Positions 3,401 through 20,536 of a stretch of DNA of 39,371 nucleotides are shown here, in pieces. How positions within the stretch are numbered: position 1 is the stretch's first letter; every line of letters starts with the position of its first letter. A program made the translations under genes and the position numbers. The notes below the pieces were generated by a model. That model was not told where the DNA came from. It searched no databases and saw only the letters and a list, made by a program, of their open reading frames with translations. Source of the stretch: a virus; IMG/VR virus record IMGVR_UViG_3300010885_082087, positions 1 to 39,371 of that record. One strand, written 5' to 3'.

Positions 3401-6400
3401 CTATGACCTTGGCTGTAGCCTCTATCATGGTCGCCGTGCTCTGGAGGATGACGGACAGAGCCGCCAGCCGTCTCGCGACCTCCTTGAGCTCCTTGCTGTC
3501 CGACATTTTTTCCATTACCGGCTTGATGATGCCGTCGCTGACGAACTCGGCGACCGACCTGAAGAAGCCGTCCATCTTGACCATGCCCTTCGATATCTTC
3601 TCGACCGGCGAGGCTGAGAAGAATCCCGGCTGGGTCATCGGGGCGATGTTCTCGGACATTATCTTCATCACCGGAGCCACGAGCCTCAGTATCTGAGCCA
3701 TCGCGTCTATCTTCTTAGCCGCGTCCCTCAGGTCCTTCATGTTGGAGAACTGCGACCTCACGGCGTCGACTATGCCCACCTTCACGAAATCGGCGACCTT
3801 CGCGAAGAACGCCTGGAACATCGGCATCGCCTTCTCGAGCTGGACCACTATGGAGTCGCTTATCCAGCCGACCTTCATCAGCGGGAGTATGTTCTTGTAG
3901 AGGTCGTTCACCACGCTCGCCACCGAACGGACAAGGTCTCCGATCATCTTCATGAGGTACGCGAGCTTCGCAGCCTCCTTTATGCTTACCTTCTTCTGAA
4001 GGTTTTTCGACATCGACACTATCTCGTCCAGGAACGTCATTATCGGAGGGGTCATCACCTTCAGCGCTTCGGTGCCGTAGCCCATCAGGCTCGACATGAT
4101 CCCGGAGAACATGTACAGCACGGAGAGAGCCGTGAGCATGTGCGCGCTCTTGACGATCTCGACCGCCACCAGGCTGCACGCGCGCATGACCTCGGCGACG
4201 CCGCTAGCCATGCTCGCAGCCATCCTCGGGTTCAGCTTGCCGCCCACGGACTTGGAGAAGCTCACGACGGAGTCGATGTATTCCTTTATCGGGGCGGAGA
4301 GGATGTTGAGTGTCATCACCCCGAGATACATCAGACCGGCGTACAGGAGAGCCATAGCTCCTAACCCGCCGAACGAGGCGAGACCCATGAGGAGAGGCAC
4401 GGCTTTCACGATCTCGACAGTCACCGCGGCGACCGCCCGCATCACCTCGGCGACTCCCTGACCCATCTCCGCGGCTTGTTTCGGGTTCAACGAAGAGCCG
4501 ACCGATTTCGAGAAAGCCACGACCGACCTGATGTAATAGCCTATCGGGGATGAGAGAATGTTCAGGGTCATGACACCAGCATACATCAGACCGGCGTACA
4601 AGAGGGCTAGAGCCCCCAATCCGCCCCATGAACCTAGAACCATGAGGAGAGGAACGGCCTTCACGATCTCGACGGTCACCGCGGCGACCGCCCGCATGAC
4701 CTCGGCGACGCCCTGACCCATGCTCGCCGCCAGTTTCGGGTTCAACGACGACCCCACCGATTTCGAGAAAGCCACGATCGAACTGATGTAATGTTCTATC
4801 GGAACAGAGAGTATGTTCAGGGTCATGACCCCGAGATACATCAGACCGGCATACAGTAGGGCTAGAACTCCCAACCCGCCCCATGAACCTAGAACCATGA
4901 GCAGAGGCACTGCTTTCACGATCTCGAGGGTCACGTCCCTGCACGCGGTCATCACGTCGGTTATGCCCTTGCCCATCTCCGCCGCCAACTTCGGGTTGAT
5001 TATAGACCCGACCTTCTTCGAGAAGTCGCGTATCGTGCGCACGTAATCGTATATCGGCTTGGAAAGTATGAACAGAGCCGCGATGCCGAGATACATCAGA
5101 CCGGCATAAAGTATAGCCCCAACACCGAAAACGCTCAACAACCCTAGAGCCCCGAGCAAGGCGGCTGATTTCACGATCTCGATGGTCACGTTCCTGCAGG
5201 CTGTCATCACGTCCGTGACGCCCTGGCTCATCTCCGCCGCGGTCTTGGGGTTCATGATCGCGCTCACCGCCTTGACGAAACCGAGGACGGCGGCGACATA
5301 CAGTATTAAAGGCACGGAAAGTATCGAGAAGGCGAGTACGCCGAGAAGAGCCATGAAGGCTATATCTTTCGCCACGGGAAGCAGCGCCCCCATGATCGAC
5401 ATCATGACCGACGACTTGATGACGGATCCCGTGATGCTGGCTGCAGCCGACATGACGGCGGTGATCGCCTCCGATATCTCTTTTGCTTTGTTGGCGTCCA
5501 GCTTCAGGACACCCAGGATGAACTCGCCCATCTTCACTATCGCCGCCCCGAGGAACAGCACCGGGGGAATGAGCATCATCAGGGTCTTGGCTCCGATCCA
5601 CATGAGCGGGACGTATCCCCATATGAACGCCGCCTGTGTTCCGAGAAGGGCTAGACCGACCATAGCCTTGGCTACGGTCATGGCTATCGAGCCCGCGCTG
5701 CTTATGATCGAGGCTACAGCCTCCCCTATCTCCTTGGCTTTCCCGGCGTCGAGGTCGAAGCCGCCGAGTATCTTCTCCCCCATCTTGACTATCGCGCCTC
5801 CCAGCAGGATGATTGCCGGGGTCGCGACCAACAGCACAAGGGCGCCGAGAGCCATCATCGGGATCGCCCCGGTTATTATCGACCACATGCCTCCGAGGGC
5901 GGAAAGACCGAACATCGCCGCTCCCACGGCGCCGGCTATGGTCGCCGCAGCCACGAGCACCGCCACCACGGCTGCTGATATCTCCGTAGCCTTGGCGGCG
6001 GTCAGGTCGAAAGCCCCGAGTATCTTGTCGCCCATGGCGACTATCGCCGCGCCCAACAGGATTATGACTGGTGTCGCGACCAGAAGTATCATTGCTCCCT
6101 TAGCCATCGGTTTTAGGGCTCTCTTTATAATTTCCCACATGCCTCCGAGGGCGGAGAGACCGAACATAGCCCCGCCGACCGCCCCGGCTATCATCGCCGC
6201 GCTTATGAGCACCGTCACGACCGCGGTCGATATCTCCGTAGCCTTTGCCGCAGTCAGGTCGAAAGCCCCCAGTATCTTGTCGCCCATGGCGACTATCGCC
6301 GCGCCCAACGTGATTATGACTGGGGTGGCGACCAGAAGTATCCCAGCGCCTATAGCCATCGGCGTAAGCGCCGCGTATATCATCGGCCACATGCCCCCGA

Positions 6401-9400
6401 GGGCGGAGAGACCGTACATCGCCCCGCCGACCGCCCCTGCTATTATCGCGGCACCCATCAGGACAGCCACGACCGCGGTCGATATCTCCGTAGCCTTCGC
6501 GGCAGTCAGGTCGAAAGCGCCGAGTATCATCTCGCCCATCTTCACTATCGCCGCCCCGAGGACGAGTATGACTGGCGTCGCAACCATAAGGACTTCTGCG
6601 CCTATAGTCATCGGCGTAATTGCCGCGGATATTATTTCCCACATGCCTCCGATGGTGGCGAGACCGAACATCGCCCCGCCGACAGCCCCGGCTATTATCG
6701 CGGCACCCAGAAGGACAGCCACGACCGCGGTCGATATCTCCGTAGCCTTCGCGGCGTTGAGGTCGAAGACGCCGAGTATCATCTCGCCCATCTTCATGAT
6801 CGCGGCGCCCAACAGTATGATGGCTGGCGTGAAGAGGAGCAGTATGGTTGCACCTTTTATGATGGTTTTTCTGTCTTTCATGATCGTTTTAGACATTCCG
6901 CCAACCAGCTTGAGACCAGCCATGGCAGCCAAGACTGCTGCGGCTATGATTCCGACGCCGACGCCTAGGGCGACTATCGTAGCCGTCGTGGCTGCTATGG
7001 CTGAAGGGTTGAGGTTCAGCCCGCCGAGTATCATCTCGCTCATCTTCATGATCGCCGCGCCGAGGATGATGATGGCGCCGGTTATCATCAGCAGGGACTT
7101 GCCGACGCTCATTATTGTTTTGACCGTTTTCATGGGCTTGCTTATCACGCTCATACCCTTGATCTTGTCCAGAACCATCGCGGTTCCCACGGAAGCCAAC
7201 ACTATTCCGGTGGTGGCTGCGCCCAGTTCCGCTATGACCATCGCCGTCTCCATCACGCTGGATGGCGACAGACCCAGACCCTTCAGTATCATGTCGGACA
7301 CCTTGACTATCATCGCCCCTAGAGCCACGGTGGCGATCGATATCAAAGCCAGAGACCCGGCAACCTTCGCGAGTTCCTTGGCTTTTTTTGGATTGGAAAT
7401 TTTCTTGATCGCTTTTTTGTTCTCCTCGAGCATGTCGATGAGTTCCATGGAAGCCATCGCTATGCCGACGGCTGCGCCGCCTATCGCGACTATGACTGCG
7501 GCTGTCTCCGCCACCGTCGCCAAGTCAAGGTTGAGAGCCTTTATGATCTTTGTGCCTATGAACATTATCGCGGCGCCGAGGATCAGGAGACCCACAGCCA
7601 TCGCCGCTATGATCGCACCGAGCTGCAGCATCTCCTGCGGCTTGATGGACTTGAGCATGCTCATTGTTTCCTCTATGAACGAGCTTCCCTTCGGAGACTC
7701 CACGTCGACGTCCTTGGTGTCGGGGCATGGGTCGCACTTCTTCTCTCCTTTGATGCGCCTCATGTCGTGAGCCATCTCCTGCCTCTGGAACTTCATCCTC
7801 CTCTTGGTGTGGTTCTCCTCAGCCCTCTCCAGAGACTTGTTGAACTTCTCGCCGCCTCCCGTCTTCGCAGCCAGCTTCTTCTGGTCCCTGAACCCGACCA
7901 CGCCACCCTGAATCGCCGACTCCTTCTTCGCGGCTATTCCAGCAGCCATCTTCTTCATGGCTTCATCGGACATCCCGCTCTTGCCGGCAGCCCTCAGCTC
8001 GCTGTCCTTCTTCTTCGCCGCCGACATCCCCAGGTCGTGGTGCTCGGACTTGAGAGGGTCGAACTTCGTCACGTTGAATCCGCCGCCACTTGTTCCGGCT
8101 CCAGCTCCGGCTCCAGCCTGCGACTTGGCGGATTTCAGGGTCGCAATGATTTCTTTCAGTAACTCTTCGGAGTTGACGTCATGCGTGTAGAGTGAACGTG
8201 CTTTCGTCGCATGGTGTTCAAGACTCTCGGTTGCTTTGGCGCCTCTCTCGGTTGTTTGTGGCAATCCAGACCTTGTAATGCTTTCAAACATGGCAGTAAC
8301 GTCGTCTTTCGCCTTGAAATAGTTGTAGATTGAGGCTAGGGATTGTACAGCCATCGCCCCGAAGGACACCACCAGACCCAAGGTCGCCAATATTCCGCCG
8401 AAGGAGGAACTGAATATGGCACTCAAGCCGCCGCCTACTAAATTCCTTATGCTGTCGTTTATCTCCTTGAGGCTCTGAGCCGACGCGGATGCCGGGTCGA
8501 GCTGAGCCTTGGAAGCGGTCGAAGCCTCCTGCTCAGCCTTCGTTATCTGAGCCGTCAGTTCCCTGATGGCAGCTGGGTCCTTGAGAGCCTTCTCTATCTG
8601 CGACGCGTCTATCTTGAGTTCTTTCTTGCCGGCATCCTTGAGCTGCTTGTTCACTCCCTGGAGCGATCCCTCTATAGCTTTCCTGGCGACGTCCGTCTCG
8701 GATGTCCATGCGACGCCAAGCGCGTTGAGGTCACCCTCGAACTCGCTCCTCTTCTTGCTGAAGCTCTGGAGGGCGTCACCCATGTTGGTGGCAGACGACG
8801 CAGCCTTGTCGAGGGCGGTGAGGACTTCCAGCGACTTGCCGAGCCTGAGTTTCCTCTCCTCCTCCGCTATGCCAGCTTTCTCGTCCAGGGTTATGTTCGT
8901 CTTCTTCTTGGCGTTGAGGTCGGAAAGCTTGTCGGCGAGGGTCTTGCTCGAGTTGGATATAGCCTCGAACTGCGATATGAGCTGCCCAGCCTCCACCCCT
9001 AGAGCCGACTCCAGAGATATGTTTATGTTCCTCTTCGTGGCGTCGTCGAGTTCCTCGAGGTTTTTCCTCATCTCCTCGGCTGTCTCTCCGGCTATGCCGA
9101 ACTGGTTGGCTATGCTCTTGAATCCTCCAGCCATTCCCTTCAGGCTGTCCTTGCTCTTCGTGATGCTTCCGTTGAGGAGTTCAGTCGTCAGACCAGCCCT
9201 CGAGGCGGATATGGCGAGCAGGTTGAACATCTTCGAGTCGGCAGCCAGCAGCTTGTTCGTGCTGGAAAGGGCTTCCATCATCCCTCCGCTTGTCTCTCCG
9301 ACCTTCGTAAGGTTCGCCTGGAGTTCCACGATGTTCTTGTAGGACGCGGTCGTCAGCGTCCCGGCTTTGCGCATGTTGTCCACGAAACCCTTCGAGCCAG

Positions 9401-10697
9401 AGATCACTGTAGCAAGTTCCTTGCCGGTCATGCCGGTGTTTCTGGCGACTTCCCTCATCCCCCTGCCGACTTCGGCGACCTGCGAGGAATTCATCTTCAA
9501 CTGGAGGTACATGTCCGAGAACGTGTCCTGCAAATTCCCCGCTTCAATCCCAAGCTGCTCTTCCGTGTTGAGCTGGGCGACGGCTATCTTCTGCGCCGTC
9601 TTGGCTTCCCTGATGCCCTTCTTGAGGTTGTCCACATATAATTTCTGGAATTCATCGCGAGTCTTTCCCGTCATGGCGGACGTCTTGCCCATGGCGTCGA
9701 ACGATTCGGTGAGGGCTTTGCTTCCCTTGGTGGCGCCATTTAGCTCGTAGGCTATCGCCCTTGTCTCCTGCACCAGCTTCCTCTCCTGGACAAGAAGTGC
9801 ATCCCAGCTTATGTATTTGCTCATGTCTATTCCCAAGAGCTTATTCGCTATTATGTCTTCCGTATCCTTCGCCCATCTTTCCGCCTGATAAGTGCTAAAT
9901 TTTACCGGCTTTCCTTTCTTCGCCTTTTCTTCCTTGGGTTCATTCTTGGTTTTTCCGACTATGTCATCCAGATGCTCCGAGGGATTCTTGCCCCCGGGCA
10001 TTTTCGGTGGTTTCGGTGGTTTCCCTCCCGGAGTCTCGGGATCTTTCGGCGGCGGCTTCTCCGAGACTACGCCCATCTTTTCCGCGACTTTGTTCAGGGT
10101 TGACGATATCTTGCGCAGTACCTTCCTAACCCCGGCGTCGTTGGTGTAGATGGATCCGGGCTTCATGCCCCTCAGAGCCATCTTCTCCAGGTTGTCCATG
10201 CCCTTGATTTCGACCATCGACGAGACAGCGCTCTCGACCTTGGTGGAGGAACTCTGCTGCATGGTCTTCAATGTGGTGCTTATCTCTGTCAGGGATTTCC
10301 TAGCCTCCTCGTCCTTCGTGTAGATGGACGTGGCGCTCATCGCCATCTTCGCGAACTGCTCCATGAACGACAGGTCCGCGACTTCGGCTGCCGAATCCTT
10401 CTTCTCCTTGCCGGTCTGTTCCTTCTTGTCCCTTATTTCCTCAAGCACCTTCTTCATGTCGTCGAGGTAGGTCTTGCGGTCATCGACATCAGCCTTGAAG
10501 TCCTTGACGTACTGGGTGAATATGTCGGATATATTCTGGAGCGCCGGATCCCCCGACTTTTCCTTGCCGAACGACTTGGCTTCTCCCACCGGGCTTTTCA
10601 GCTTGGTGCCGAGCATGTCCCTTATCTGCTCCAGGGTCATGTTGGCGGTGTTCTGAGCTGCCACTACTCTTCCTAGGTTGTCCGAAATTTGAGCCAT
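1..10697 (-). CDS. Giant tail tape-measure protein (3' end outside window)
   Basis: Sets tail length and sits inside the tail tube. The frame is open from the ATG at 10697 to the window edge (at least 3565 residues); I read many lines across it and found no stop. An AAAAGG ribosome site precedes the ATG. Residues 1-700 are charged, helical and tape-measure-like. A hydrophobic stretch (about 780-810) follows, then a Gly/Ala linker, then long arrays of 80-85-residue modules: Gly/Ala-rich membrane-like units (positions 7650-5500), units with a LNPK-like turn (5350-4200), and amphipathic units with a GIVxPIL-like motif (about 4000-800). The far end has a Lys/Ser-rich duplicated stretch and 22-residue Gly-rich repeats. 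No lytic domain is visible in the part present. T4 gp29 is only about 590 residues, so this tail is predicted to be very long. The tape-measure call rests on size, composition and repeat architecture. Confidence 0.82.
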   Translation of the reverse strand, partial: MAQISDNLGRVVAAQNTANMTLEQIRDMLGTKLKSPVGEAKSFGKEKSGDPALQNISDIFTQYVKDFKADVDDRKTYLDDMKKVLEEIRDKKEQTGKEKKDSAAEVADLSFMEQFAKMAMSATSIYTKDEEARKSLTEISTTLKTMQQSSSTKVESAVSSMVEIKGMDNLEKMALRGMKPGSIYTNDAGVRKVLRKISSTLNKVAEKMGVVSEKPPPKDPETPGGKPPKPPKMPGGKNPSEHLDDIVGKTKNEPKEEKAKKGKPVKFSTYQAERWAKDTEDIIANKLLGIDMSKYISWDALLVQERKLVQETRAIAYELNGATKGSKALTESFDAMGKTSAMTGKTRDEFQKLYVDNLKKGIREAKTAQKIAVAQLNTEEQLGIEAGNLQDTFSDMYLQLKMNSSQVAEVGRGMREVARNTGMTGKELATVISGSKGFVDNMRKAGTLTTASYKNIVELQANLTKVGETSGGMMEALSSTNKLLAADSKMFNLLAISASRAGLTTELLNGSITKSKDSLKGMAGGFKSIANQFGIAGETAEEMRKNLEELDDATKRNINISLESALGVEAGQLISQFEAISNSSKTLADKLSDLNAKKKTNITLDEKAGIAEEERKLRLGKSLEVLTALDKAASSATNMGDALQSFSKKRSEFEGDLNALGVAWTSETDVARKAIEGSLQGVNKQLKDAGKKELKIDASQIEKALKDPAAIRELTAQITKAEQEASTASKAQLDPASASAQSLKEINDSIRNLVGGGLSAIFSSSFGGILATLGLVVSFGAMAVQSLASIYNYFKAKDDVTAMFESITRSGLPQTTERGAKATESLEHHATKARSLYTHDVNSEELLKEIIATLKSAKSQAGAGAGAGTSGGGFNVTKFDPLKSEHHDLGMSAAKKKDSELRAAGKSGMSDEAMKKMAAGIAAKKESAIQGGVVGFRDQKKLAAKTGGGEKFNKSLERAEENHTKRRMKFQRQEMAHDMRRIKGEKKCDPCPDTKDVDVESPKGSSFIEETMSMLKSIKPQEMLQLGAIIAAMAVGLLILGAAIMFIGTKIIKALNLDLATVAETAAVIVAIGGAAVGIAMASMELIDMLEENKKAIKKISNPKKAKELAKVAGSLALISIATVALGAMIVKVSDMILKGLGLSPSSVMETAMVIAELGAATTGIVLASVGTAMVLDKIKGMSVISKPMKTVKTIMSVGKSLLMITGAIIILGAAIMKMSEMILGGLNLNPSAIAATTATIVALGVGVGIIAAAVLAAMAGLKLVGGMSKTIMKDRKTIIKGATILLLFTPAIILLGAAIMKMGEMILGVFDLNAAKATEISTAVVAVLLGAAIIAGAVGGAMFGLATIGGMWEIISAAITPMTIGAEVLMVATPVILVLGAAIVKMGEMILGAFDLTAAKATEISTAVVAVLMGAAIIAGAVGGAMYGLSALGGMWPMIYAALTPMAIGAGILLVATPVIITLGAAIVAMGDKILGAFDLTAAKATEISTAVVTVLISAAMIAGAVGGAMFGLSALGGMWEIIKRALKPMAKGAMILLVATPVIILLGAAIVAMGDKILGAFDLTAAKATEISAAVVAVLVAAATIAGAVGAAMFGLSALGGMWSIITGAIPMMALGALVLLVATPAIILLGGAIVKMGEKILGGFDLDAGKAKEIGEAVASIISSAGSIAMTVAKAMVGLALLGTQAAFIWGYVPLMWIGAKTLMMLIPPVLFLGAAIVKMGEFILGVLKLDANKAKEISEAITAVMSAAASITGSVIKSSVMMSIMGALLPVAKDIAFMALLGVLAFSILSVPLILYVAAVLGFVKAVSAIMNPKTAAEMSQGVTDVMTACRNVTIEIVKSAALLGALGLLSVFGVGAILYAGLMYLGIAALFILSKPIYDYVRTIRDFSKKVGSIINPKLAAEMGKGITDVMTACRDVTLEIVKAVPLLMVLGSWGGLGVLALLYAGLMYLGVMTLNILSVPIEHYISSIVAFSKSVGSSLNPKLAASMGQGVAEVMRAVAAVTVEIVKAVPLLMVLGSWGGLGALALLYAGLMYAGVMTLNILSSPIGYYIRSVVAFSKSVGSSLNPKQAAEMGQGVAEVMRAVAAVTVEIVKAVPLLMGLASFGGLGAMALLYAGLMYLGVMTLNILSAPIKEYIDSVVSFSKSVGGKLNPRMAASMASGVAEVMRACSLVAVEIVKSAHMLTALSVLYMFSGIMSSLMGYGTEALKVMTPPIMTFLDEIVSMSKNLQKKVSIKEAAKLAYLMKMIGDLVRSVASVVNDLYKNILPLMKVGWISDSIVVQLEKAMPMFQAFFAKVADFVKVGIVDAVRSQFSNMKDLRDAAKKIDAMAQILRLVAPVMKIMSENIAPMTQPGFFSASPVEKISKGMVKMDGFFRSVAEFVSDGIIKPVMEKMSDSKELKEVARRLAALSVILQSTATMIEATAKVIGFMDPTSFFSDAPMEKIMKNKGKFRTWFNSIVVLIKDGIIAPVALIGDSKVLKDTAMKLCQMSSIMKSVVSVIESVAKAIGMMDPKYIFFDSPVDKIMKNKDKFKESFIAISKFINDGIVKPVVSEFGDAREITVASVILKAMAKAIWAVPRVITGLAAAISLMTDSKSFFKDTPVDSIMKNKDQFGIYFKSIAKFLKEGIVDPILDEMGDAKDIQTAAKILKAMNKVITYIPKVILGVSEGLMPLMLGGKRLEKDTPFETILDNKDQFATYFRTIAKFLKEGIVNPILEELGDGKDIQSAAKTLRAMSKVINYIPKVIRGVSEGLMPLMMSKDLTKDSPMEKIMENKAEFEMYFRSIAKFLKEGIVNPILDEMGDGKDIQSAGKTLRAMSSIVRIIPLLISRLAKAFGLMKPEDCIKDSPIAALSKHASEFAGWFYEVATFMRHGIVEPLLEGAVSPEEIVSASEAIDNIAVNIENVPEFVSRLSTAIYGLMNSKYFDYKIFKNAKMVGDWFGGIARSLLDGFIYPIREMPDSTEMEELKTRLSIISDIIPAVQQVIGQLVANIAPLVTNNTWFSALPISMLEKQTRIFGDYWMGISEFINLGIVQPIIMNLPESRVLSEANDRIVGVSKILAVVNEVVGYLMSTITPLVSSKGWFSDLPIVQLEKQTKVFAEYWKQISRFLNEGIINPIMKNLPNSAVLQEANDRISMTVRIIGNVVNVIKKFSSSISPMMKGGFINNSEIANVQKATKDFGTYWNNITVFLNNGLINPILNNLPESSELKEVLSRTELLSDVIESVRTSMLTFMEVLAPMMEGGISSPISEIQKSTEEFGGSFKAIATFLRDGLINPILENIPNSTELQEALLRIELVTEMIVAIKTAMSTLSDSISSVSEMDLGSMNIGDIALLSGMSNSVKPKIGGGVSGGGSMGGGVSGGDAVKPEKSSSKDLSEALSKSKPAGVSGDAVKPEKSSSKDLSGALSESKPAAGATSIIGDGLSLIGSAIGGVASGAASIVTGGLSLIGSAIGGVASGAASIVTGGLSFVGSAISGTASLAKNIVGGGLSFVGSAISGTASLAKTIVGGGLSLVGSAISGTASLAKNIVGGGLSLVGSAISGTASLAKNIVGGGLSLVG
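444..605 (-). repeat. 81-bp tandem duplication in tape-measure gene
   Basis: Two adjacent 81-bp copies (444-524 and 525-605) encode the 27-residue unit GDAVKPEKSSSKDLS-ALS-SKPA twice. It is a hydrophilic Lys/Ser/Asp-rich linker between the amphipathic modules and the Gly-rich repeats. Confidence 0.9.
4200..5350 (-). repeat. 85-residue modules of the tape measure
   Basis: The plus-strand string atacatcaga (encoding LMY in the module) recurs at 5091, 4836, 4581 and 4326, exactly 255 nt (85 codons) apart. Units share SKSVGS-LNPK-AA-MGQGVAEVMRA-like segments and a hydrophobic LLYAGLMYLGVMTLNIL-like segment. Confidence 0.85.
5500..7650 (-). repeat. 84-residue Gly/Ala hydrophobic modules of the tape measure
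   Basis: The motif encoding KMGE-ILG-FDL recurs near 7538, 7281, 7022, 6770, 6520, 6268, 6016, 5764 and 5512. Spacing is about 252 nt (84 codons) for most pairs, 257-259 for the first two. Each unit contains an AKATEIS-like segment, a GAVGGAMFGLSALGGMW-like hydrophobic hairpin and an ILLVATPVI-like helix. DNA similarity between neighbouring units is high, indicating relatively recent duplication. Confidence 0.85.
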
Positions 10698-10767: not shown

Positions 10768-11307
10768 TCATGGCGTCGCCGCAGCCATCGGGTTAGTCAT
10801 TCGTGATATTTGTTCCCGCACAGATTTTCGGATCGCTTCAACTTCTGAAGGACTTATTGACCTTACTGAAGCGAGAACATTGAGAAGAAATGCGCAGTCC
10901 AAAACCTTAACCTGCCGTATGCCGCTTTTCTTGTACTGCCTAAAGGCACTTGTCAGGTTTATATATTGCCCCTGCTTCAAAGTATCGTAAGAAAAATTGA
11001 CGTTATTGCAGTTCGCCTGCAGCAGGACCCTGATGTCGTTGAAAGCCAGGTAATGCAGGTTCACCCCGCGCACGTCGAACCTGGTCGGGTTCCTGTACGG
11101 GACGGGATAGTCCCTGTCCGTCACGAGCACCATCGGGTACGGATCGTGGTTCGGCTTGTTGAAGGTGTACCTGAACACCATCAGGCTTCCCTTCTGCACG
11201 GTCTGGTTCGGCTTCATGACGGACTGGCTGACGTCCTTGGTGGGACCGTAACCGGTCTGACCATATGAGCTTGCGTCCATCGTAGCTGGCGTGAATAGGT
11301 CTGGCAT
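10768..11307 (-). CDS. Small probable virion protein, family not firmly identified
   Basis: A 179-residue protein upstream of the tape measure on the same strand. The central part has a short beta-like pattern (GSLMVFRYTF, then YPMVLVTDRDYP) followed by VRGVNLHYLAF. This G-x-NLHYL arrangement reminds me of small virion-associated proteins seen in many T4-like phages, but I cannot name the family with confidence. The C-terminus is helical and basic. I chose the ATG at 11307; the frame extends further upstream, but that extension would overlap the divergent gene. No clear ribosome site precedes 11307. Instead there is CATAAATA (11313-11320), like a T4-type late promoter, so the message could be nearly leaderless. 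Confidence 0.75.
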   Translation of the reverse strand: MPDLFTPATMDASSYGQTGYGPTKDVSQSVMKPNQTVQKGSLMVFRYTFNKPNHDPYPMVLVTDRDYPVPYRNPTRFDVRGVNLHYLAFNDIRVLLQANCNNVNFSYDTLKQGQYINLTSAFRQYKKSGIRQVKVLDCAFLLNVLASVRSISPSEVEAIRKSVREQISRMTNPMAAATP

Positions 11308-11320: not shown

Positions 11321-11348
11321 TTTACCGGGACAAAAAAAACAATATAAT
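11321..11348 (+). promoter_or_regulatory. Possible sigma70-type promoter for the AlpA/alpha-CTD gene
   Basis: A perfect TATAAT (11343-11348) lies 16 bp after a weak TTTACC (11321-11326), in the divergent gap, 42 bp before the ATG at 11391. The -35 match is poor, so this is tentative. Confidence 0.35.
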
Positions 11349-11390
11349 TGATGCGGTTGTCTTCCGTATTCCACTTGGAGGCTTTCAGAA

Positions 11391-11816
11391 ATGTTCCTAC
11401 GCAAAAAAGACCTCGTGACGATGCTGTCCGTTTTTCCCCAGGACATCGAAGAGCTGGTGTCGAGCGATGGATTCCCAAAGCCCATATATGCCTTGATGAA
11501 ATACCGGGAATCCAACGACATGGAGATGTACGAGATCAAGGCTGTCAACGAATGGCTCCTGGGCAGGAGGCAAACCGTCTCCGCCGAGTCTCGGGAGGAG
11601 ATACTCGACATGCCGGTGACGAACCTCGGGTTTTCCGCCAGGGCTAGGAAGGCTTTGCGGAGGATGAACGTGACCACCGTCGGGGAACTGACCAAGAAGA
11701 CAGAGATGGACATGAGGGAGGTCAGGAACTGCGGAGTCTCCACCATCAAGGAGATAAAGGACAAGGTCTCAAGCCTTGGTCTGGGCGAGGTTTTCGGCGA
11801 GCGAGCCGTTCGCTGA
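11391..11816 (+). CDS. AlpA-like DNA-binding domain fused to RNA polymerase alpha-CTD-like domain
   Basis: A 141-residue predicted transcription regulator. Residues 1-60 resemble the AlpA/excisionase (HTH_17) winged-helix family: LRKKDLVTML, then SDGFPKPI, then IKAVNEWLLGRR. Residues 74-135 match the bacterial RpoA C-terminal domain pattern: DMPVTNLGFSARARKALRRM, VTTVGELTKKTE, then NCGVSTIKEIKDKVSSLGL. In RpoA this helix-hairpin-helix domain binds UP-element DNA and activators. The combination suggests a protein that binds its own operator while presenting an alpha-CTD-like surface to polymerase or sigma, or to AT-rich promoter DNA. A GGAGG site precedes the ATG. It heads a co-oriented run of eight small genes. 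Domain calls come from recognisable motifs; the regulatory role is inference. Confidence 0.85.
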   Translation: MFLRKKDLVTMLSVFPQDIEELVSSDGFPKPIYALMKYRESNDMEMYEIKAVNEWLLGRRQTVSAESREEILDMPVTNLGFSARARKALRRMNVTTVGELTKKTEMDMREVRNCGVSTIKEIKDKVSSLGLGEVFGERAVR

Positions 11817-11874: not shown

Positions 11875-12300
11875 ATGAAATACAAATGCCCGAAATGCGA
11901 TGTTTCTTTCCGTTCCGACTACAGCAGGTACTCCATATGGGACTGCGACAGTTGCGGAGCAAAGTTCAGGGGTCTGCACTGCGACGCCGACATGTTCGAC
12001 TACTACCTCCACAACGTGCCCATATTGCCCCATTTCTTCCTCGCGGACGCGACATACAAGTTCGACCTCTATGGCGGCGGTCCAAACTACACGCACTGCC
12101 CACACTGCTTCTCCGAAATAAACGGCAGCAACGGCAAGTCGCGTGACGGGAACTGGCCGTCCGTTTGCCACTCATGCACGAACTCCCTGCAGACCTCGAA
12201 GCACGTGGAGAAGAAGCCGGTCGCAGAAGCCGAGGTCGTGAAGCCGAAAAAGAAAAAGAGCGAGTACGAAAAGCTCAGGGAGCTCATAGATAGGCTTTGA
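11875..12300 (+). CDS. Zinc-ribbon protein of unknown function
   Basis: A 141-residue protein with three CxxC/HCPHC-type metal sites: CPKC near residue 4, CDSC near 24, HCPHC near 73 and CHSC near 99. The tail is basic and Lys-rich (PKKKKSEYEK). Such ribbons bind nucleic acid or protein. The ATG at 11875 is chosen because the first CPKC pair follows at once; the longer upstream reading would overlap the previous gene. The ribosome site is weak. Followed 8 nt later by the next gene. No specific function recognised. Confidence 0.75.
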   Translation: MKYKCPKCDVSFRSDYSRYSIWDCDSCGAKFRGLHCDADMFDYYLHNVPILPHFFLADATYKFDLYGGGPNYTHCPHCFSEINGSNGKSRDGNWPSVCHSCTNSLQTSKHVEKKPVAEAEVVKPKKKKSEYEKLRELIDRL

Positions 12301-12308
12301 GGTGAACC

Positions 12309-12863
12309 ATGAGGAAAAAGGAATCGATATCGTCACTGTTCGGCAGGATCGAGAAAAAGACAATCGGGATAGTCTCGGCTTTCCGATCCGCCCACGACAA
12401 GGCTGAAAACCTCAAGAGGAGCGACAGGCTGGAGAGCGACATCAAGGATGCCGGTCTCGAGTTCGCGAGGCTTGAGGGTCACTACATAGAGGGCTACGGA
12501 TCGGATTCGCAGAAGGAGCCGAAGAGGGAGATATCTTTCCTCGTGTTCGGCGAAGACGGCGACGACGTTGGCAGCCTCAAGGGTTTCCTCAAGGACGTCG
12601 GGTCGAAGTACAACCAGGATTCCGTCCTTTACAAGCAGTACGACAACAAGAACGCGTACCTCATAGGCACTTCGGGGGAAGACGAGGAAGGCAACAGGAT
12701 ATCGTATCCCGGCATCGGCAAGGAAGTGAGCGTCGGCAGGTTCAAGCCGATGAGGATCGGCGAGTTCTACTCGAAGATGAAAGGTCACACCTTCGTGTTC
12801 GAGTGGGGATGCCCCAAAAACTTCTCTGACTATGTCGATTTCATGGAAAACAGTTTACTGTAG
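12309..12863 (+). CDS. DUF3293-like hypothetical protein
   Basis: A 184-residue protein. After a basic N-terminus it shows the order LEGHYIEG, EISFLVFG, then a YNQDSVLY segment and AYLIGTSG. This matches what I recall of DUF3293 proteins in phages and proteobacteria (a gly/tyr motif, an E..FLV strand, then a Q-x-[AS]-[IV]-x-[YF] strand). Function of that family is unknown. Preceded by GAGGTG close to the ATG and co-directional with its neighbours. Confidence 0.7.
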   Translation: MRKKESISSLFGRIEKKTIGIVSAFRSAHDKAENLKRSDRLESDIKDAGLEFARLEGHYIEGYGSDSQKEPKREISFLVFGEDGDDVGSLKGFLKDVGSKYNQDSVLYKQYDNKNAYLIGTSGEDEEGNRISYPGIGKEVSVGRFKPMRIGEFYSKMKGHTFVFEWGCPKNFSDYVDFMENSLL

Positions 12864-12905: not shown

Positions 12906-13073
12906 ATGAAGACAATGATTTTCGCATTCGCAGCCTTGTTTGTAGCCGGGTGTTCCTCGACGCAAAGCTCCAGGTGGGAGAGTTCCGTCAACGGCAGCGC
13001 CAGAGTCTACACGGACAAGCCGCAGGCGGTCGAGTACGTCGACGTGACGGCGACGCTTAAAAGGTGTTGGTAA
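12906..13073 (+). CDS. Small predicted lipoprotein
   Basis: A 55-residue protein with a classic lipoprotein signal: MKTMIFAFAALFVAGC, with VAGC as the lipobox and Cys16 as the lipidation site. Mature part is only about 40 residues. AAAGGAG (12891-12897) is well placed for the ATG at 12906, so I prefer it to the in-frame ATG at 12882. Phage lipoproteins of this size include Rz1-type spanin parts and superinfection-exclusion proteins, but the mature part is not proline-rich as in Rz1. Role unknown. Confidence 0.75.
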   Translation: MKTMIFAFAALFVAGCSSTQSSRWESSVNGSARVYTDKPQAVEYVDVTATLKRCW

Positions 13074-13105: not shown

Positions 13106-13603
13106 ATGTTGATAGACCAGATTGATGATTTGAAGAGAGTATCTAGGTCCGCGTTCGAGAGCGATGGCTCTCATGTCACGCTGTACATTCTCAACGTCAA
13201 TGGCGTGACGAGATTGCAGCCGTGCTTCTGGAAAAACCAGGACGAGAAAATGGAATCCATCGAGTCGCTGAAGAAAATGATAGCGAACGGGGAACTGAGG
13301 GAGTACGTGTTTATCGCGGAGGCTTGGCTCGTGGAGAAGCAGTTGCCTAGCTCGATCAAGGAAGTGACCGACCACATCGGCGAAATGGGGAGCTTGGAAG
13401 ACTATCCCGACAGGAAGGAATCGTTGATCATCGAGTACTCGAGCTTCAAGACCAGCAAGTCCTACGTCGCCGATATAAGCCGTGACGGCGACAAGGTGTC
13501 GCTAGGAGACTGGGAAACCTGGGACGAGAGCCATTCGTTGGGCGGTTTGGTGTACGGCAAGATGCAGAACCTGTTCGAGTTGTCGAAGGCTGGGTCGAAT
13601 TAA
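13106..13603 (+). CDS. Hypothetical protein
   Basis: A 165-residue soluble acidic protein with mixed alpha/beta character and a Trp-rich acidic region near the end (GDWETWDESHSLG). GAAAGGA lies upstream of the ATG. Its TAA overlaps the ATG of the next gene (TAATG), so the two are probably translationally coupled. No family recognised. Confidence 0.75.
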   Translation: MLIDQIDDLKRVSRSAFESDGSHVTLYILNVNGVTRLQPCFWKNQDEKMESIESLKKMIANGELREYVFIAEAWLVEKQLPSSIKEVTDHIGEMGSLEDYPDRKESLIIEYSSFKTSKSYVADISRDGDKVSLGDWETWDESHSLGGLVYGKMQNLFELSKAGSN

Positions 13604-13929
13604 TGAAAACTCTCGAGAAAAAGACGTTGTATCTTTGCGACGGGTGCAGGAAGATGGGCGTTAGGAGCAGGAGTTCCAAGGTCTTCGAGAGCTTCTTCTG
13701 CCCCAGGTGCAACAGGGAGACCACCCTCATACTCCCGGTTACTTCGATGCCGACGATCCCTCCCGTCGCCTCGACTCCACCGGTGGACGAGTGCGTCATG
13801 CCGGTCCCGGAGAAAGCCCCAAAGGCAGAGCCGCGAAACGCCGTCGTCGCAAAGCCGTTGTTTTCGATGGTCGATTTCTTCATATTCATGGCTGGTTTCG
13901 TTTCCGCAATATTAATCGTGAAAGGATAG
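13603..13929 (+). CDS. Zinc-ribbon membrane protein
   Basis: A 108-residue protein. CDGC near residue 12 and CPRC near 33 form a treble-clef/zinc-ribbon pair. A Pro-rich linker follows, then a C-terminal membrane segment (VDFFIFMAGFVSAILIV). Predicted to be a tail-anchored inner-membrane protein with the zinc ribbon in the cytoplasm. Its start overlaps the previous stop by one base. Function unknown. Confidence 0.75.
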   Translation: MKTLEKKTLYLCDGCRKMGVRSRSSKVFESFFCPRCNRETTLILPVTSMPTIPPVASTPPVDECVMPVPEKAPKAEPRNAVVAKPLFSMVDFFIFMAGFVSAILIVKG

Positions 13930-13933
13930 AATC

Positions 13934-14317
13934 ATGGCATCTAGATCCGAGACGGTAGCGCAGAGGTTCGTGAAGATGGTATTGCCCGTATGCGTCGACA
14001 TATCCAGCGGCGTCGAGGTCGACTACAACGACATCATCGTCATGCAGGACGTCTTCTGGTACATGGTCACCAACGACATGTTCTTCATAAAGAAACTGGA
14101 CGAGGAAAGCAAGAAGGACAAGGAGGATCAGATGGTCAAGTTCCTCGAGAGCGTCAACAATCTGGAGCAGAGCGAGGAAGGGAACGTTTTCGAGAAGATG
14201 CCGAAGCCGATAGGCATGGCGTACCTCTGGTGGGATTCGATGGTGAAGTCCATATTGAGGCAGAGACCAAACCTTCTCGACGAGATCGAGAAGAACGGCG
14301 AGATTTTCGGCGGTTAA
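13934..14317 (+). CDS. Hypothetical helical protein
   Basis: A 127-residue mostly helical acidic protein. GAAAGGA overlaps the end of the previous gene and serves the ATG at 13934. Notable segments are VDYNDIIVMQDVFWYMV and IGMAYLWWDSMVKSIL. Family not recognised; context suggests a small early or accessory gene. Confidence 0.7.
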   Translation: MASRSETVAQRFVKMVLPVCVDISSGVEVDYNDIIVMQDVFWYMVTNDMFFIKKLDEESKKDKEDQMVKFLESVNNLEQSEEGNVFEKMPKPIGMAYLWWDSMVKSILRQRPNLLDEIEKNGEIFGG

Positions 14318-14371
14318 TCAATGGCGTTACCTCGGCTGCTTCGAAGCGCCGTTATCTTAAGGAGATTCTTC

Positions 14372-14746
14372 ATGAAAATTGTATCCAACACTCTTGACAT
14401 TGTTTGGGAGACCTGGGAAGACCCTGGCGAATCCGGCGCTGGTTCCAGAGAGAGCGAGACATACCCGGTCATCAAGGGGCAAGTGATATTCGAAGCCGAG
14501 AATGAGGAGGAAATGGAAAAACTCGTGAACGATGGCATCTCGGATGAGATGGTCACTTACGATGATTTCAAGGAATTCATGGAAATGGCGACATACAGGA
14601 ACATCCATAAAATCAACTGGCGAGAAAAAATGAACGGCAACAGATGTACGGTCTTTGCCGAAAGTTGTGTCGCGGACAGGGCGTACGAGAGTGATTGCTC
14701 GGACGACGAAGACGATTACTCGGACGAATATGATTCGGATCATTGA
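14372..14746 (+). CDS. Hypothetical protein with very acidic C-terminus
   Basis: A 124-residue protein. The ATG at 14372 follows AAGGAG at the right distance; the longer reading from 14321 lacks this. The last 20 residues are almost entirely Asp/Glu/Ser/Tyr, a feature of DNA-mimic or charged tail segments, though nothing more specific can be said. Last gene of the plus-strand run; a hairpin follows. Confidence 0.7.
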   Translation: MKIVSNTLDIVWETWEDPGESGAGSRESETYPVIKGQVIFEAENEEEMEKLVNDGISDEMVTYDDFKEFMEMATYRNIHKINWREKMNGNRCTVFAESCVADRAYESDCSDDEDDYSDEYDSDH

Positions 14747-14758
14747 GCGAACGCCTCG

Positions 14759-14779
14759 ACCGCCGCGATTCACGGCGGT
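14759..14779. terminator. Hairpin between convergent genes
   Basis: Perfect 7-bp stem ACCGCCG/CGGCGGT with a 7-nt loop, exactly between the convergent ends of the genes at 14746 (+) and 14779 (-). There is no U-tract on either side, so termination may be weak. Confidence 0.5.
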
Positions 14780-15276
14780 TAGACTTTGCCCGTGACCATC
14801 GTGCTGTAGTCCTGGGGTGCGCTGAGGTCGCCAGCCCCGCCGGTCTTCAGCAGATACTGCGACTTCGCTGGCGAATCGGATATCTTCTCCTCGGCTTCCT
14901 CGGTCTTCTTGAAGAAAGTCCTTATCTCCCTTTTGGCGCTTAGCATCACCTGCTTGGCTGCGTCCTCAGCCTCGAGGTTGTCGCCCATGAAATCCGAGAA
15001 CATCCTCTCGAGGTCGAGCGAGTAAGCCTTTCCGTAGGGATGCGTGTCCTCCTCGTTCTGGACCTTGTACGCGAAGGTGTCGCCGCGGGGATACACCCTT
15101 ATGCCCTCGAAACTGAATGTCTCGTACGGCGATTTGATGTATATGTACGGGTCGTCGTCGTCGAAGAACGTCTTGATCTCGAACTTGTCGTTTCCGCTTT
15201 TCAGGACTCTGGCGAGGAGGGCGAGGTGTTCCCTGTCCTCCCTCTGCCTGTGGTTTATGAATTCGTTGAACTGCAT
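14779..15276 (-). CDS. Probable virion/internal protein with capsid-targeting-like N-terminus
   Basis: A 165-residue protein starting MQFNEFINHRQ, one of at least eight proteins here with this N-terminal pattern, which resembles the T4 capsid-targeting sequence. The middle is acidic and beta-rich (FFDDDDPYIYIKSP), the end helical with Lys/Glu. AAGGAG (15284-15289) lies over the stop of the upstream gene and supports the ATG at 15276. It is the last gene of a three-gene minus-strand set. Function unknown; internal capsid or scaffold role inferred. Confidence 0.75.
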   Translation of the reverse strand: MQFNEFINHRQREDREHLALLARVLKSGNDKFEIKTFFDDDDPYIYIKSPYETFSFEGIRVYPRGDTFAYKVQNEEDTHPYGKAYSLDLERMFSDFMGDNLEAEDAAKQVMLSAKREIRTFFKKTEEAEEKISDSPAKSQYLLKTGGAGDLSAPQDYSTMVTGKV

Positions 15277-15287: not shown

Positions 15288-16598
15288 TTAACATTGTCTC
15301 ATGAGCAATTCCGTGGCGTTCGGGACGCACCGCATCAGAACCTTGAGGTCGCTCGGGTTCCCGTTGTACGGCGTCTCCTTCCACGAGAGACCGGTGAAGG
15401 AGGCTGCAGCCTCCTTTATTATCTTCTGTGTCGCCGTGAGGTACAGTATTCCGTCTATCCTCTCCATGAAGTCGTTCTCCTCCTTGACCGGCTTTCCGTC
15501 CTCGTCAAGTTCGCCCGTCTCCTTGATGTACACGACCTTGAGGTCGACTGAGGGTATGATCTTGCCGTCGTTGTCTATCATCGCCTCGGAGTTCTGCGAG
15601 AGGAGAGTCTTCACCATGAGCTTGCCTTCCGTGTAGGCGTTCCTCAGCGAGGTCGCCATGTCCCAACCGACCATGTTGATGGTGCCATCGGTGGATACCA
15701 CGTGGATCATGAACGCCCTTTTCCTGAAGGAATCGCCGATGCTCTCCATCACGATCCTCCTGCGCAGCACGTCCCTCTCTTCCGGGCTTCCCTCCTCCAG
15801 CCTCTTCTGTTCCGGTTCGGTCAGGTACTTGCCTGGATCCTCTTCCTTTAGAGCCCACTTGCCTATCTCGACCCTGCCCCACTTGTCGTTGAACCTGGTC
15901 GATATCCTGATGGAGTATTCCCTCTCGTTGTAGATGATGTCCTCGCTGTTGGCTCCGCTTCCTACCTGCACCGACCCGGTGAGGGCAGCCACGAACTTGC
16001 GGTGCATGTCGCCCTTTGCCCCGAGCAGACCCTTCACCTTGATGAACACGTTGTTGAGTTCCGGCATTGTCTGGAGCACCGAGCTTATGTGCTTCGACAG
16101 TGATCCTGCCGGGCTGTTCTGGTCGAGTTCGCCCTTCACCAGCTTGCGGATCTCCTTGCTAGCCTTGTCTATGTTCGAGTGCTGCCTCAGGAAGCATATC
16201 TGCAGGTTGTCCTCGATGAACTTCCTCGGGTAGGAGTCAAGATCATCGTCCCTTATCTGCTGGATCATGTCTATCAGCTTGTTGACGTCGCCCTTGGTGG
16301 TCTCCCTCATGAAACCGTCCTGCCACTCGTCGAAGTTCTCGCTTTTCTTCTCGTCCGGCATGTCCGGGGCTTCTGGGTCCTGCGACCTGTCCGGGACCTC
16401 GTCGTCAGGCGGCGGGCTTCCGGCGTCTTCCCCTGACTTCATGTTCGGAGGCGTGTTCGCCACGTTGGGGTCGCCCTCCGGGGCTACAGGGGCTTCCTGA
16501 CCCGGTGGCACTCCAGCGCCCACGGCTGGCGGATTTCCGGAAGGGTTCATGCTTGGTTCGGCTTCGTTGAGCAATTCCTGTATCGCTATGTTATACAT
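15288..16598 (-). CDS. Large hypothetical, probable structural or assembly protein
   Basis: A 436-residue protein. Residues 1-90 are Pro/Gly/Asp-rich and disordered after a short helical start (MYNIAIQELLNEAE). The rest is folded, with a helical part (about 95-190), a beta-rich part (IIYNEREYSIRISTRF, then FMIHVVSTDGTINMVGWD) and a helical C-terminus. Its start overlaps the end of the preceding gene by 8 nt and its stop overlaps the ribosome site of the next, so the three genes are coupled. No family recognised. Confidence 0.75.
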   Translation of the reverse strand: MYNIAIQELLNEAEPSMNPSGNPPAVGAGVPPGQEAPVAPEGDPNVANTPPNMKSGEDAGSPPPDDEVPDRSQDPEAPDMPDEKKSENFDEWQDGFMRETTKGDVNKLIDMIQQIRDDDLDSYPRKFIEDNLQICFLRQHSNIDKASKEIRKLVKGELDQNSPAGSLSKHISSVLQTMPELNNVFIKVKGLLGAKGDMHRKFVAALTGSVQVGSGANSEDIIYNEREYSIRISTRFNDKWGRVEIGKWALKEEDPGKYLTEPEQKRLEEGSPEERDVLRRRIVMESIGDSFRKRAFMIHVVSTDGTINMVGWDMATSLRNAYTEGKLMVKTLLSQNSEAMIDNDGKIIPSVDLKVVYIKETGELDEDGKPVKEENDFMERIDGILYLTATQKIIKEAAASFTGLSWKETPYNGNPSDLKVLMRCVPNATELLMRQC

Positions 16599-17127
16599 TT
16601 TTTTCCTTGTTGTTCTTCGCCTTGTTTATAGCCTCTATGAGGTTCCTTCTTGATCCGGACTCGTTGATGTTGATCGTGTTGTTCTGGTTTGTCGCCAAGT
16701 ATTTCGGGAAGGTGTCCTTCTCCTTGAGCTTGACCCTTGTCATCATGTCGGCTACCTTGGACATCTTGTCTGTCATGTCCACCTTTATCTTTATGAGGTT
16801 CACGAGAGCCTCCTTGCTTGAGGTGGTCGCGTCGCCGTCGTTTATGACCATCTCCGCCATGGTGTCTATGAAACCGCTCACCTGCTGCCTGTCTTCCTTT
16901 ATCAGACCGAGTATGTCGGCGTATATGCCGGTTATCTCCTCGTCCGATATTATGCTGTTCTCCTGGGGTTCGATCGACTGGTCGACGACCTTGGAGTTCA
17001 TGTTCGGGAGGACGCTCTGTATGTCCCGTAGTTCGTCGCGTAGTTCGTCTCCGACACTGTCGATTATCTCGATCGTGGAAAATTCTTCTGTTTTTTTCAT
17101 TTCTTCAATAAGGTCTCCGCTGTTCAT
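16591..17127 (-). CDS. Helical acidic protein, possibly terminase-small-subunit-like
   Basis: A 178-residue all-helical acidic protein. The central helices (IYADILGLIKEDRQQVSGF, then SKEALVNLIKIKVDMTDKM) recall the layout of T4-like gp16 small terminase proteins, where paired helices precede a DKL-type segment, but similarity is too weak to assign. The C-terminus is basic (NNKEKNV). Start uncertain: ATG 17127 has no clear ribosome site, and an in-frame ATG at 17100 is possible. First gene of the minus-strand set, divergent from the gene at 17166. Confidence 0.65.
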   Translation of the reverse strand: MNSGDLIEEMKKTEEFSTIEIIDSVGDELRDELRDIQSVLPNMNSKVVDQSIEPQENSIISDEEITGIYADILGLIKEDRQQVSGFIDTMAEMVINDGDATTSSKEALVNLIKIKVDMTDKMSKVADMMTRVKLKEKDTFPKYLATNQNNTININESGSRRNLIEAINKAKNNKEKNV

Positions 17128-17165
17128 GTAATATATAAGCTCGGAACACGAGAAATCTGAAACCT

Positions 17166-17564
17166 ATGACACAACAAAAAAGCAACTCCAGGCAGATAGA
17201 GGTCGACGCGGTCGACAAGAACATCCGCGACTCCATAGAGTCCGTCATCAACATGGTGTCGAGGATAGACGAAAGGATCAAGATCCTCTACGAGAAGGAC
17301 GACGAGTACAAGAGCAACCTGGATCTGGTGTCCGAAGACATAAGGTCGATACTACAGAGGGTCGCTTCGATTGAGACCACGATCCACTCCGACGACATAG
17401 AGGCTATACGGGCGAAAATGCACGAACTCGACATCAGGACTTCGAACCTCGACCTGTCCCTGTCGAACCATTCGGACAAGTGGTCAAAGACCGTCGACTG
17501 GATTTTCAAGATAGTTCTTACTTTCATATCCACCTACGCGGCGTACAAGCTAGGACAAAACTGA
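17166..17564 (+). CDS. Coiled-coil protein with C-terminal membrane anchor (XhlA-like)
   Basis: A 132-residue protein. Residues 10-100 are heptad-rich (INMVSRIDERIKILYEK; ILQRVASIETTI), followed by one C-terminal membrane segment (WIFKIVLTFISTYAAYKLG). This layout is typical of the XhlA/haemolysin-like family found next to phage lysis genes and in virions. No endolysin or holin is visible nearby, so a lysis role is only a possibility. Ribosome site is weak. Confidence 0.7.
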   Translation: MTQQKSNSRQIEVDAVDKNIRDSIESVINMVSRIDERIKILYEKDDEYKSNLDLVSEDIRSILQRVASIETTIHSDDIEAIRAKMHELDIRTSNLDLSLSNHSDKWSKTVDWIFKIVLTFISTYAAYKLGQN

Positions 17565-17594
17565 CATTCTTGTTTCAAAAATCGAGTCCGGAAA

Positions 17595-17602
17595 GATAAA
17601 TA
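17595..17602 (+). promoter_or_regulatory. NATAAATA late-promoter-like motif
   Basis: GATAAATA, 29 nt before the ATG at 17632. With T4-like spacing it would give a leader of about 24 nt carrying the GGGG ribosome site. Role inferred. Confidence 0.35.
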
Positions 17603-17631
17603 ATTTTGTATTTTTACTTTTGGGGAATCAA

Positions 17632-19098
17632 ATGAAAAACAAATTTTCACGTTTCATAGCATTCAGGGAACAAAACGAGACAAAGCCGAACAACACGGTC
17701 ATGTCCAAGGTCAGGCTCAGCAAGGACAGCGACTACATGCCGTTCAACGTCTCCAAGGGCAACAGGGCTAACCTCCGCATCCTCATGAAGTCCTTCGACA
17801 ACAGCGACAAGACGGGCATAGGGTACACGACCATAGAGAAAAGCAAGGGCGAGGTGGAGCCGACCCTCAAGAGGAAGTCGCTTTACCTGTCCGGCGGCTC
17901 GGTCAGGGACCACCTCAAGAACAAGACGCAGAAGAACTACAACCTCGTCACCGACGCCACCGCCAGCGAGATAAGGATGATCCTGAGCCACCCGGAAAAC
18001 TCGTTCGTCGAGATAAAGCCGAAGAACGAGAGCAAGGCTTCGTCCGAGAAATACGCGAAACTCCTCAAGGAAAGCAACAGGAACAAGTACTTCTACGCCT
18101 CCAGGTGGGACAAGGGCGGGAAGGAGTCGGAATTCACGATCGTCATAAACGGGGAGAAGTTCGAGCTCTCCACGATGTCCAAGTCATCCAAGAGCAAGCT
18201 GGTCGACCTCGATTCCTTCGAGGCTACCGGATCACTCGAGGACGACGCGAGCAACAGGGACTTCACCATAAACTCCATGTACATACCGCTGACCAACAGC
18301 GACGGCGACAACTCCGACCTAATAGACCCGTACGGCGGAGCGCACCACCTCAAGAACAGCCAGATAGTCAGCGTCAACGACGACTTCAAGTCGAGGATAG
18401 AGGAAGACCCGGGCACCGCGATGCGCTACGCCAGGATGCTTTCGAAATACGGCAACCCCGACGACGTCGCCAAGAAATACTCCAGCGCCATAAAGGGGAG
18501 CGAGAGGATGGGCGAACTTTCCAAGGACTACGCCAAGAAGGAGTTCTTCGGGAGCATCGAAGACCCGGACATAGACTCCAGGAAGTACCTCAAGCTGATG
18601 GACAGCCTCGGTCTGCTCCGCAACATCATGCCGGACTACTCTCTGGAAGACATGCCGACCAACATGAAGGGGGACAGGTGGCTGACCACGGCTTGGCTGA
18701 CCAAGGACAAGGATTCCGAGGAACTCAAGGGCATGCTTGTCGCCAACGGATGGTCGAAGCAGGAGGCTGGCGACATAGCCCACCTCGTGAGCCTCTACAA
18801 GTGGTCCAAAAGCAATTTCGACCCGTCCATGTTCTATGACCTCAAGAGCGCCAAGACTGGACTGACGAAGGGCAAGATCAAGGACTGGATGAAGATGGGG
18901 AGGTTCGACGGTCCGCAGATGGGCTCGTTCCTCAGCCATGACGACTCCGATTTGAGCCCCTACGTCGACACCGTCTTCGGAAAGAAGGTCAACCCGGCTT
19001 ATGTCGACATGCTCGGTCACAGCCCCAAAGGCGATGATTTCGAGCGGACGAGAAGGCATTTGTCCACAAAGAGGTTCCTGGACAATATTGGTTCCTGA
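17632..19098 (+). CDS. CCA-adding enzyme/poly(A) polymerase-like protein with altered catalytic site and capsid-targeting-like N-terminus
   Basis: A 488-residue class II nucleotidyltransferase-fold protein. The head-domain signature is clear: LSGGSVRDHL near residue 86, NRDFTINSMY near 207, DLIDPYGGAHHL, then EEDPGTAMRYARMLSKYG. In active enzymes the segment after GGxVRD reads K-D-x-D, with two metal-binding Asp. Here it reads KNYNLVTDAT, so both Asp are Asn. Either it is inactive and kept for RNA binding, or it uses another chemistry. The N-terminus MKNKFSRFIAFREQ matches the shared capsid-targeting-like tag, suggesting packaging into the head. ATG at 17632 follows GGGG; an in-frame TTG at 17620 is less likely. 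Confidence 0.85.
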   Translation: MKNKFSRFIAFREQNETKPNNTVMSKVRLSKDSDYMPFNVSKGNRANLRILMKSFDNSDKTGIGYTTIEKSKGEVEPTLKRKSLYLSGGSVRDHLKNKTQKNYNLVTDATASEIRMILSHPENSFVEIKPKNESKASSEKYAKLLKESNRNKYFYASRWDKGGKESEFTIVINGEKFELSTMSKSSKSKLVDLDSFEATGSLEDDASNRDFTINSMYIPLTNSDGDNSDLIDPYGGAHHLKNSQIVSVNDDFKSRIEEDPGTAMRYARMLSKYGNPDDVAKKYSSAIKGSERMGELSKDYAKKEFFGSIEDPDIDSRKYLKLMDSLGLLRNIMPDYSLEDMPTNMKGDRWLTTAWLTKDKDSEELKGMLVANGWSKQEAGDIAHLVSLYKWSKSNFDPSMFYDLKSAKTGLTKGKIKDWMKMGRFDGPQMGSFLSHDDSDLSPYVDTVFGKKVNPAYVDMLGHSPKGDDFERTRRHLSTKRFLDNIGS

Positions 19099-20523: not shown

Positions 20524-20536
20524 AAGGAGATTCGCG

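Follow-up and report, generated by a model that had tools for sequence, protein, structure and literature searches.

The window, by which we mean the whole stretch of DNA analysed (a virus record of 39,371 bases), carries a small gene, P0001, whose product joins a putative winged helix of the AlpA/excisionase type to an RNA polymerase alpha C-terminal domain (alpha-CTD). The gene and its surroundings are laid out as follows:

10768..11307, minus strand: T4 gp2-like DNA end protector, a divergent late gene on the conserved flank (phrog_429, E 7.7e-6)
11321..11348, plus strand: predicted sigma70-type promoter of the accessory cassette, TTTACC-N16-TATAAT (sequence; comparison with relatives)
11377..11381, plus strand: Shine-Dalgarno GGAGG, 9 nt 5' of the P0001 ATG (sequence)
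11391..11816, plus strand: P0001, a 141-aa fusion protein (open reading frame, homologue, dN/dS)
11391..11570, plus strand: putative AlpA/excisionase-type winged helix (remote), residues 1-60, with an FPKPI signature at residues 28-32 and an acidic recognition helix (profile, hhalign, guided model, charge count)
11589..11786, plus strand: RNA polymerase alpha-CTD domain of P0001, residues 67-132 (Pfam, PDB sequence match, model, residue comparison)
11875..12300, plus strand: zinc-ribbon protein, the second cassette gene (profile search; relative in L162)
12309..12863, plus strand: S-adenosylmethionine (SAM) lyase, likely anti-restriction (PF23780, E 3.2e-14)
12906..13073, plus strand: short putative lipoprotein of the cassette (sequence)
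13106..14746, plus strand: four further small cassette genes, at 13106-13603, 13603-13929, 13934-14317 and 14372-14746 (open reading frames)
14779..15276, minus strand: conserved late gene on the other flank of the variable gap (synteny)
15288..16598, minus strand: conserved late structural-type protein, used as the clade-finding query (54% to LR756511)

P0001 heads a cassette of eight co-directional genes on the strand opposite to the flanking late genes, which bears out the preliminary description's view of it as the head of an operon of small genes. The SAM lyase of this cassette is of the T3 SAMase kind, with kin in cyanophages, Lak phages and Campylobacter phage CP220.

P0001 is a real gene. 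A full-length homologue with 94% protein identity lies in IMGVR_UViG_3300049009_000811 (115,719 bases), and the fusion is a single frame that is intact in both genomes, which excludes an artefact of two joined reading frames. Between the two copies dN is 0.028 and dS 0.077 (dN/dS about 0.36), values by which the frame shows moderate constraint only. Protein-based scans for close relatives, conducted with the whole protein, its N-terminus and its alpha-CTD, returned this homologue alone, and PHROGs offered no credible family; the fusion is known from two sequences that, at 94% identity, are too alike for the conservation of its surfaces to be judged over any depth.

The late genes on either side of the cassette are syntenic with those of LR756511.1, an uncultured phage of 595,163 bases, and of 23 further viral loci; the window, with LR756511 as a relative, falls in a clade of huge phages. 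Across the clade loci, the gap between the gene at 14779-15276 and gp2 ranges from 80 to 4,552 bases, and P0001 is absent from the equivalent locus in all 24 others; no genome but that of the window and its near-identical relative has it there. A search of 17 other clade records and LR756511 with PF03118 revealed no convincing alpha-CTD; the single hit barely over the cut-off, which fell inside a 697-aa frame and covered profile positions 25-63 only, was rejected. Found in two near-identical genomes and missing from 24 loci, P0001 was, on this distribution, gained recently or sporadically at a variable accessory site. As for the polymerase that transcribes these genomes, LR756511 encodes two sigma-region-4 proteins and gave no match to RNA polymerase beta and none above cut-off to a T7-type polymerase, so that the clade very likely relies on the host enzyme.

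The late gene block of this clade is a hot spot for accessory cassettes of 0.1 to 4.6 kb (L060 at 16828-18721; the pre-gp2 gap in L161-L184); in LR756511, for example, the other strand carries a DNA methyltransferase gene there. Elsewhere in the window, a reading frame of 3,565 residues or more, containing numerous membrane-like repeats (3-10697, minus strand), holds the tape-measure position beside the gp2-like gene and runs past the window edge. Two long C5-cytosine methyltransferase genes and, after them, three or more short ORFs lie within 19186-23387 and 29245-29607; the short ORFs repeat the C-terminal motif only (ECERLQGFPDNWT..IPYR.KP..CPDGPRYKAIGNSM..NVMRWIG), possibly through decay or as a recombination array. 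The window also encodes a poly(A) polymerase/CCA-type nucleotidyltransferase (17620-19098), a ClpP-like protease (25099-25710), an IscA-type iron-sulphur protein (33168-33557) and two HNH_3 endonucleases, likely homing endonucleases (36733-37206 and 37817-38401).

The preliminary description had also proposed that the operon may have a promoter of its own. Although promoter counts in the window show no excess over chance, we consider the predicted cassette promoter credible because relatives carry sites in the same direction. In L002 the promoter is identical save for one spacer base, and in L162, the closest relative, TTTACA-N17-TATAAT stands at the equivalent position, with the zinc-ribbon gene as the first cassette gene behind it, directly beside the gp2-like gene. 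Comparable same-direction promoters adjoin the gp2-like gene in L162, L163, L164/L178/L182 and L181. In the clade as a whole, strong sigma70-type sites adjoining gp2 face the cassette in seven loci, which represent five distinct sequences with this species among them, and face gp2 in none.

The C-terminal half of the protein gave a clear identification. Residues 67-127 match PF03118, the Pfam model of the RNA polymerase alpha C-terminal domain, at an E-value of 2.4e-17, which excludes chance as an explanation (62.8 bits, where the cut-off is 23.8), and the closest PDB sequences are Bacillus-type alpha-CTDs (best E 4.5e-12). Modelled with AlphaFold, this half reaches a pLDDT of about 83-91 over most of its length and fits the 1z3e alpha-CTD, from a complex with Spx, at 1.0 A over 64 residues. 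Taken together, the Pfam, PDB sequence and model matches establish this half as an alpha-CTD by descent, more than a generic helix-hairpin-helix (HhH); its similarity to alpha-CTD proper is far greater than that to other HhH families. No RNA_pol_L or alpha-NTD match was found in the 141 residues, indicating that the protein is without the N-terminal dimerisation and assembly domain of RpoA. Hits in Listeria, Enterococcus and Staphylococcus phage records (unannotated, matching in the alpha-CTD only, 39-42% identity) were set aside because such matches are expected of host rpoA fragments. Scanning 84,980 genomes with an alpha-CTD alignment yielded 80 loci, one of them an end fragment, which were essentially all ordinary RpoA and nearly all from Bacillota; since the search pattern held Bacillus residues, this bias says nothing firm about the donor of the domain.

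The N-terminal half is more remote from known families. Residues 1-70 had no Pfam match at E ≤ 10, no NCBIfam match and no PHROG match of credible E-value, and PF05930 (AlpA) matched nowhere in the record at E ≤ 1. Since AlpA sequences, when aligned jointly with the whole of P0001, were misplaced onto the alpha-CTD, we handled the N-terminus alone, using a profile custom-built from 25 viral AlpA-type proteins. Its score, with similarity spanning residues 2-33, exceeded those of all 20,000 shuffles of the same N-terminus, the seeds having been found partly with an FPKPVKLG pattern. When FPKPI was held fixed, about 22 of 20,000 shuffles reached the score (p about 1e-3), so that much of it is owed to this motif. 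Comparison with the AlpA alignment by hhalign gave a probability of 91%, a score that was reached by none of 400 full shuffles and none of 400 in which FPKPI was kept. AlphaFold modelled the N-terminus poorly without AlpA rows (pLDDT about 46-58), and as a winged helix with a core pLDDT of 81-87 when guided by them. The guided model best matched the GIsul2 excisionase 8c3t (Z 8.3, 1.5 A, 56 residues), with the packaging-redirecting protein 6hn7 at Z 7.5 and many MerR-type domains matching as well. We regard the winged helix as likely, stopping short of certainty because the model was guided by AlpA rows, and on this remote evidence the domain is probably of the AlpA/excisionase type. Hence, of the fusion originally proposed from the reading frame, the alpha-CTD part is firmly established, by domain search and structure prediction alike, while the AlpA part is probable, being absent from Pfam and NCBIfam and recovered by the custom profile, hhalign and the guided model.

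A peculiarity of this N-terminal domain is the charge of its recognition helix. The corresponding stretch reads FPQDIEELVSS in P0001 and LPHDIDEMVSS in the homologue, in both cases with a net charge of -3, three acidic residues and no basic one, whereas the 25 AlpA proteins range from 0 to +3 and never have more than one acidic residue. This acidity makes ordinary AlpA-style operator reading by the protein doubtful.

We then compared the surfaces of the alpha-CTD, in E. coli numbering, with the 80 sampled RpoA, a reference drawn nearly entirely from Bacillota. What these determinants do is well established in E. coli, where the 261 determinant touches sigma region 4 and the 285-288 patch is the surface used by activators such as CRP. 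R265, N294, G296 and E302 are retained in P0001, as is the T285/E286/D288 patch, which most alpha-CTDs keep. Of the seven UP-element residues (R265, N268, C269, G296, K298, S299 and E302), four are altered (N268K, C269A, K298S and S299T), and all seven are unchanged in 80/80 sampled RpoA. The acidic 261 determinant is lost, D259 being replaced by N (S in the relative) and E261 by G. Helix 1 (SARARKALRRMN) carries a net charge of +5, against +3 to +4 in the 80 RpoA and between -1 and +3 in the remaining viral alpha-CTDs; the net charge of the whole domain, +6, is at the top of the compared set. Arg265 is crucial to UP-element and activator contact and is the target of T4 Alt/ModA (PMC2988021). 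The altered UP-element residues lower the functional equivalence of the domain to a cellular alpha-CTD and leave its homology untouched.

To place the protein among other viral sequences, we scanned viral contigs with alpha-CTD alignments, a survey in which few of the resulting contigs were individually checked for host contamination. L004 (7461-8198) encodes a phage or prophage protein with sigma-70 region 4 (E 8e-15) followed by an alpha-CTD (E 2.3e-23), on a contig that carries a phage integrase; this sigma-alpha hybrid may surpass the window's protein in interest. L020 (4726-5619) and its close relatives L021 and L022 combine DUF6891, an alpha-CTD and a sigma-region-4 helix-turn-helix (HTH) in one protein, with the alpha-CTD ahead of the HTH, and L065 and L071 place an HTH_17-like winged helix (below the Pfam cut-off) before the alpha-CTD. 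In L017, L024 and L066 the alpha-CTD is joined to domains of no assigned family, and in L005 it stands alone. The N-terminal domains of L065/L071 bear no recognisable relationship to that of P0001, which suggests separate fusions, and a scan of this pair against 84,980 genomes gave no confirmed relative. Most of these other fusions retain N268, C269, K298 and S299 better than P0001 does. The preliminary description knew of no phage protein with this domain order; a literature search, which covered few subscription journals, likewise found no description of a phage alpha-CTD fusion, yet the HTH and alpha-CTD proteins in other viral contigs deprive the arrangement of its uniqueness. The fusion of an HTH to an alpha-CTD is apparently a recurrent and undescribed phage architecture, of which P0001 is one variant.

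We propose, with a probability of about 45% for the explanation as a whole, that P0001 serves a huge phage dependent on host RNA polymerase as an accessory regulator specific to its lineage. It would be expressed from the sigma70-type promoter heading an accessory cassette of the host-takeover type. Its alpha-CTD-derived domain would most likely dock on DNA near promoters through the strongly basic helix 1 with Arg265; the basic helix and the kept R265 suggest that this part still grips DNA, and the alteration of four of the seven UP-element residues makes that docking uncertain too. The domain would perhaps also contact host activators through the kept 285-288 surface, and probably does not grasp sigma region 4. 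Specificity would come from the N-terminal winged helix, for which a protein partner is more likely than the reading of a normal AlpA operator because the recognition helix is acidic. We thus infer, from sequence, both these activities and the regulatory role, with the tasks of the two domains partly swapped: the alpha-CTD on DNA, and the winged helix on a partner. The net effect would be a shift in the sites of action of host polymerase or of its activators. More generally, and as a tentative suggestion that we hold to be possible at best, phages may repeatedly graft a captured host alpha-CTD onto an HTH or sigma region 4 to make single-chain regulators, with inverted roles in this huge phage, where a basic alpha-CTD without sigma contact would hold DNA and an acidic AlpA fold would hold the partner.

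Several other explanations would account for parts of these observations. The one originally offered, which has the AlpA domain recognise a particular operator and the alpha-CTD bring in host polymerase through its normal interactions with sigma region 4 and UP DNA, suits the domain order, the intact alpha-CTD fold and a clade apparently reliant on host polymerase. It fits the residues poorly, however, given the lost 261 determinant, the changes at N268, C269, K298 and S299 and the acidic recognition helix, and such simple recruitment is unlikely. The erosion of these polymerase-specific surfaces, with the fold core and basic helix retained, and the excisionase-type N-terminus could instead speak for a generic HhH grip on DNA in a non-transcriptional protein, active in genome organisation, recombination directionality or end protection beside the gp2-like end protector. 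This we consider somewhat unlikely, as alpha-CTD proper is far better matched than other HhH families and the gene lies together with a SAM lyase in an accessory cassette on the opposite strand, away from replication genes.

The retained 285-288 patch would also suit a decoy, a copy of the alpha-CTD that titrates activators or other alpha-CTD-binding factors off host polymerase and so silences host genes. Yet nearly all alpha-CTD relatives keep this patch, which may therefore be structural, activators need R265 plus residues that are altered here, and the N-terminal domain would be superfluous, making such a decoy quite unlikely. A decoy of another kind, a counter-defence protein imitating the alpha-CTD-like domain inside BREX PglW and acting with the adjoining SAM lyase, is suggested by NCBIfam and PADLOC PglW models that match the domain (E 4.5e-7 and 4.5e-8, respectively) and by the presence of that lyase in the cassette; it is hardly credible, since the PglW match is weaker than the true alpha-CTD match and expected from shared homology.

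Set against known systems, the protein shares with the bacterial alpha-CTD (PF03118) homology, fold and R265, N294, G296 and E302, and differs from the alpha subunit in being without its N-terminal domain, in its altered UP-element and sigma-contact residues and in the placement of the domain behind a winged helix. Likewise, it remotely resembles the AlpA/excisionase winged helices (Xis, RdfS, PICI Rpp) in profile similarity, FPKPI and guided-model match, but lies below Pfam detection, has a wing six residues longer, an acidic recognition helix and a C-terminal alpha-CTD. The viral fusions L004 and L020-L022 (Sigma70_r4) and L065/L071 (HTH_17-like) similarly join an HTH module to an alpha-CTD on a viral contig.

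The alpha-CTD is the main docking point of bacterial activators and a known phage target. In T4, it is likewise a point of transcription takeover through Alt/ModA (PMC2988021), yet these are enzymes that ADP-ribosylate the host's Arg265, whereas P0001 carries a copy of the domain. Sigma appropriation by T4 MotA/AsiA, in which a small phage protein pair redirects host polymerase (PMC2988021), acts through sigma region 4 and, unlike P0001, involves no alpha-CTD homology. Phage proteins built on a copy of the alpha-CTD would thus be a distinct way to hinder or borrow host transcription, and the joining of this domain to a winged helix, to sigma region 4 or to other domains provides several small, testable proteins, the altered residues of which lead to clear predictions.
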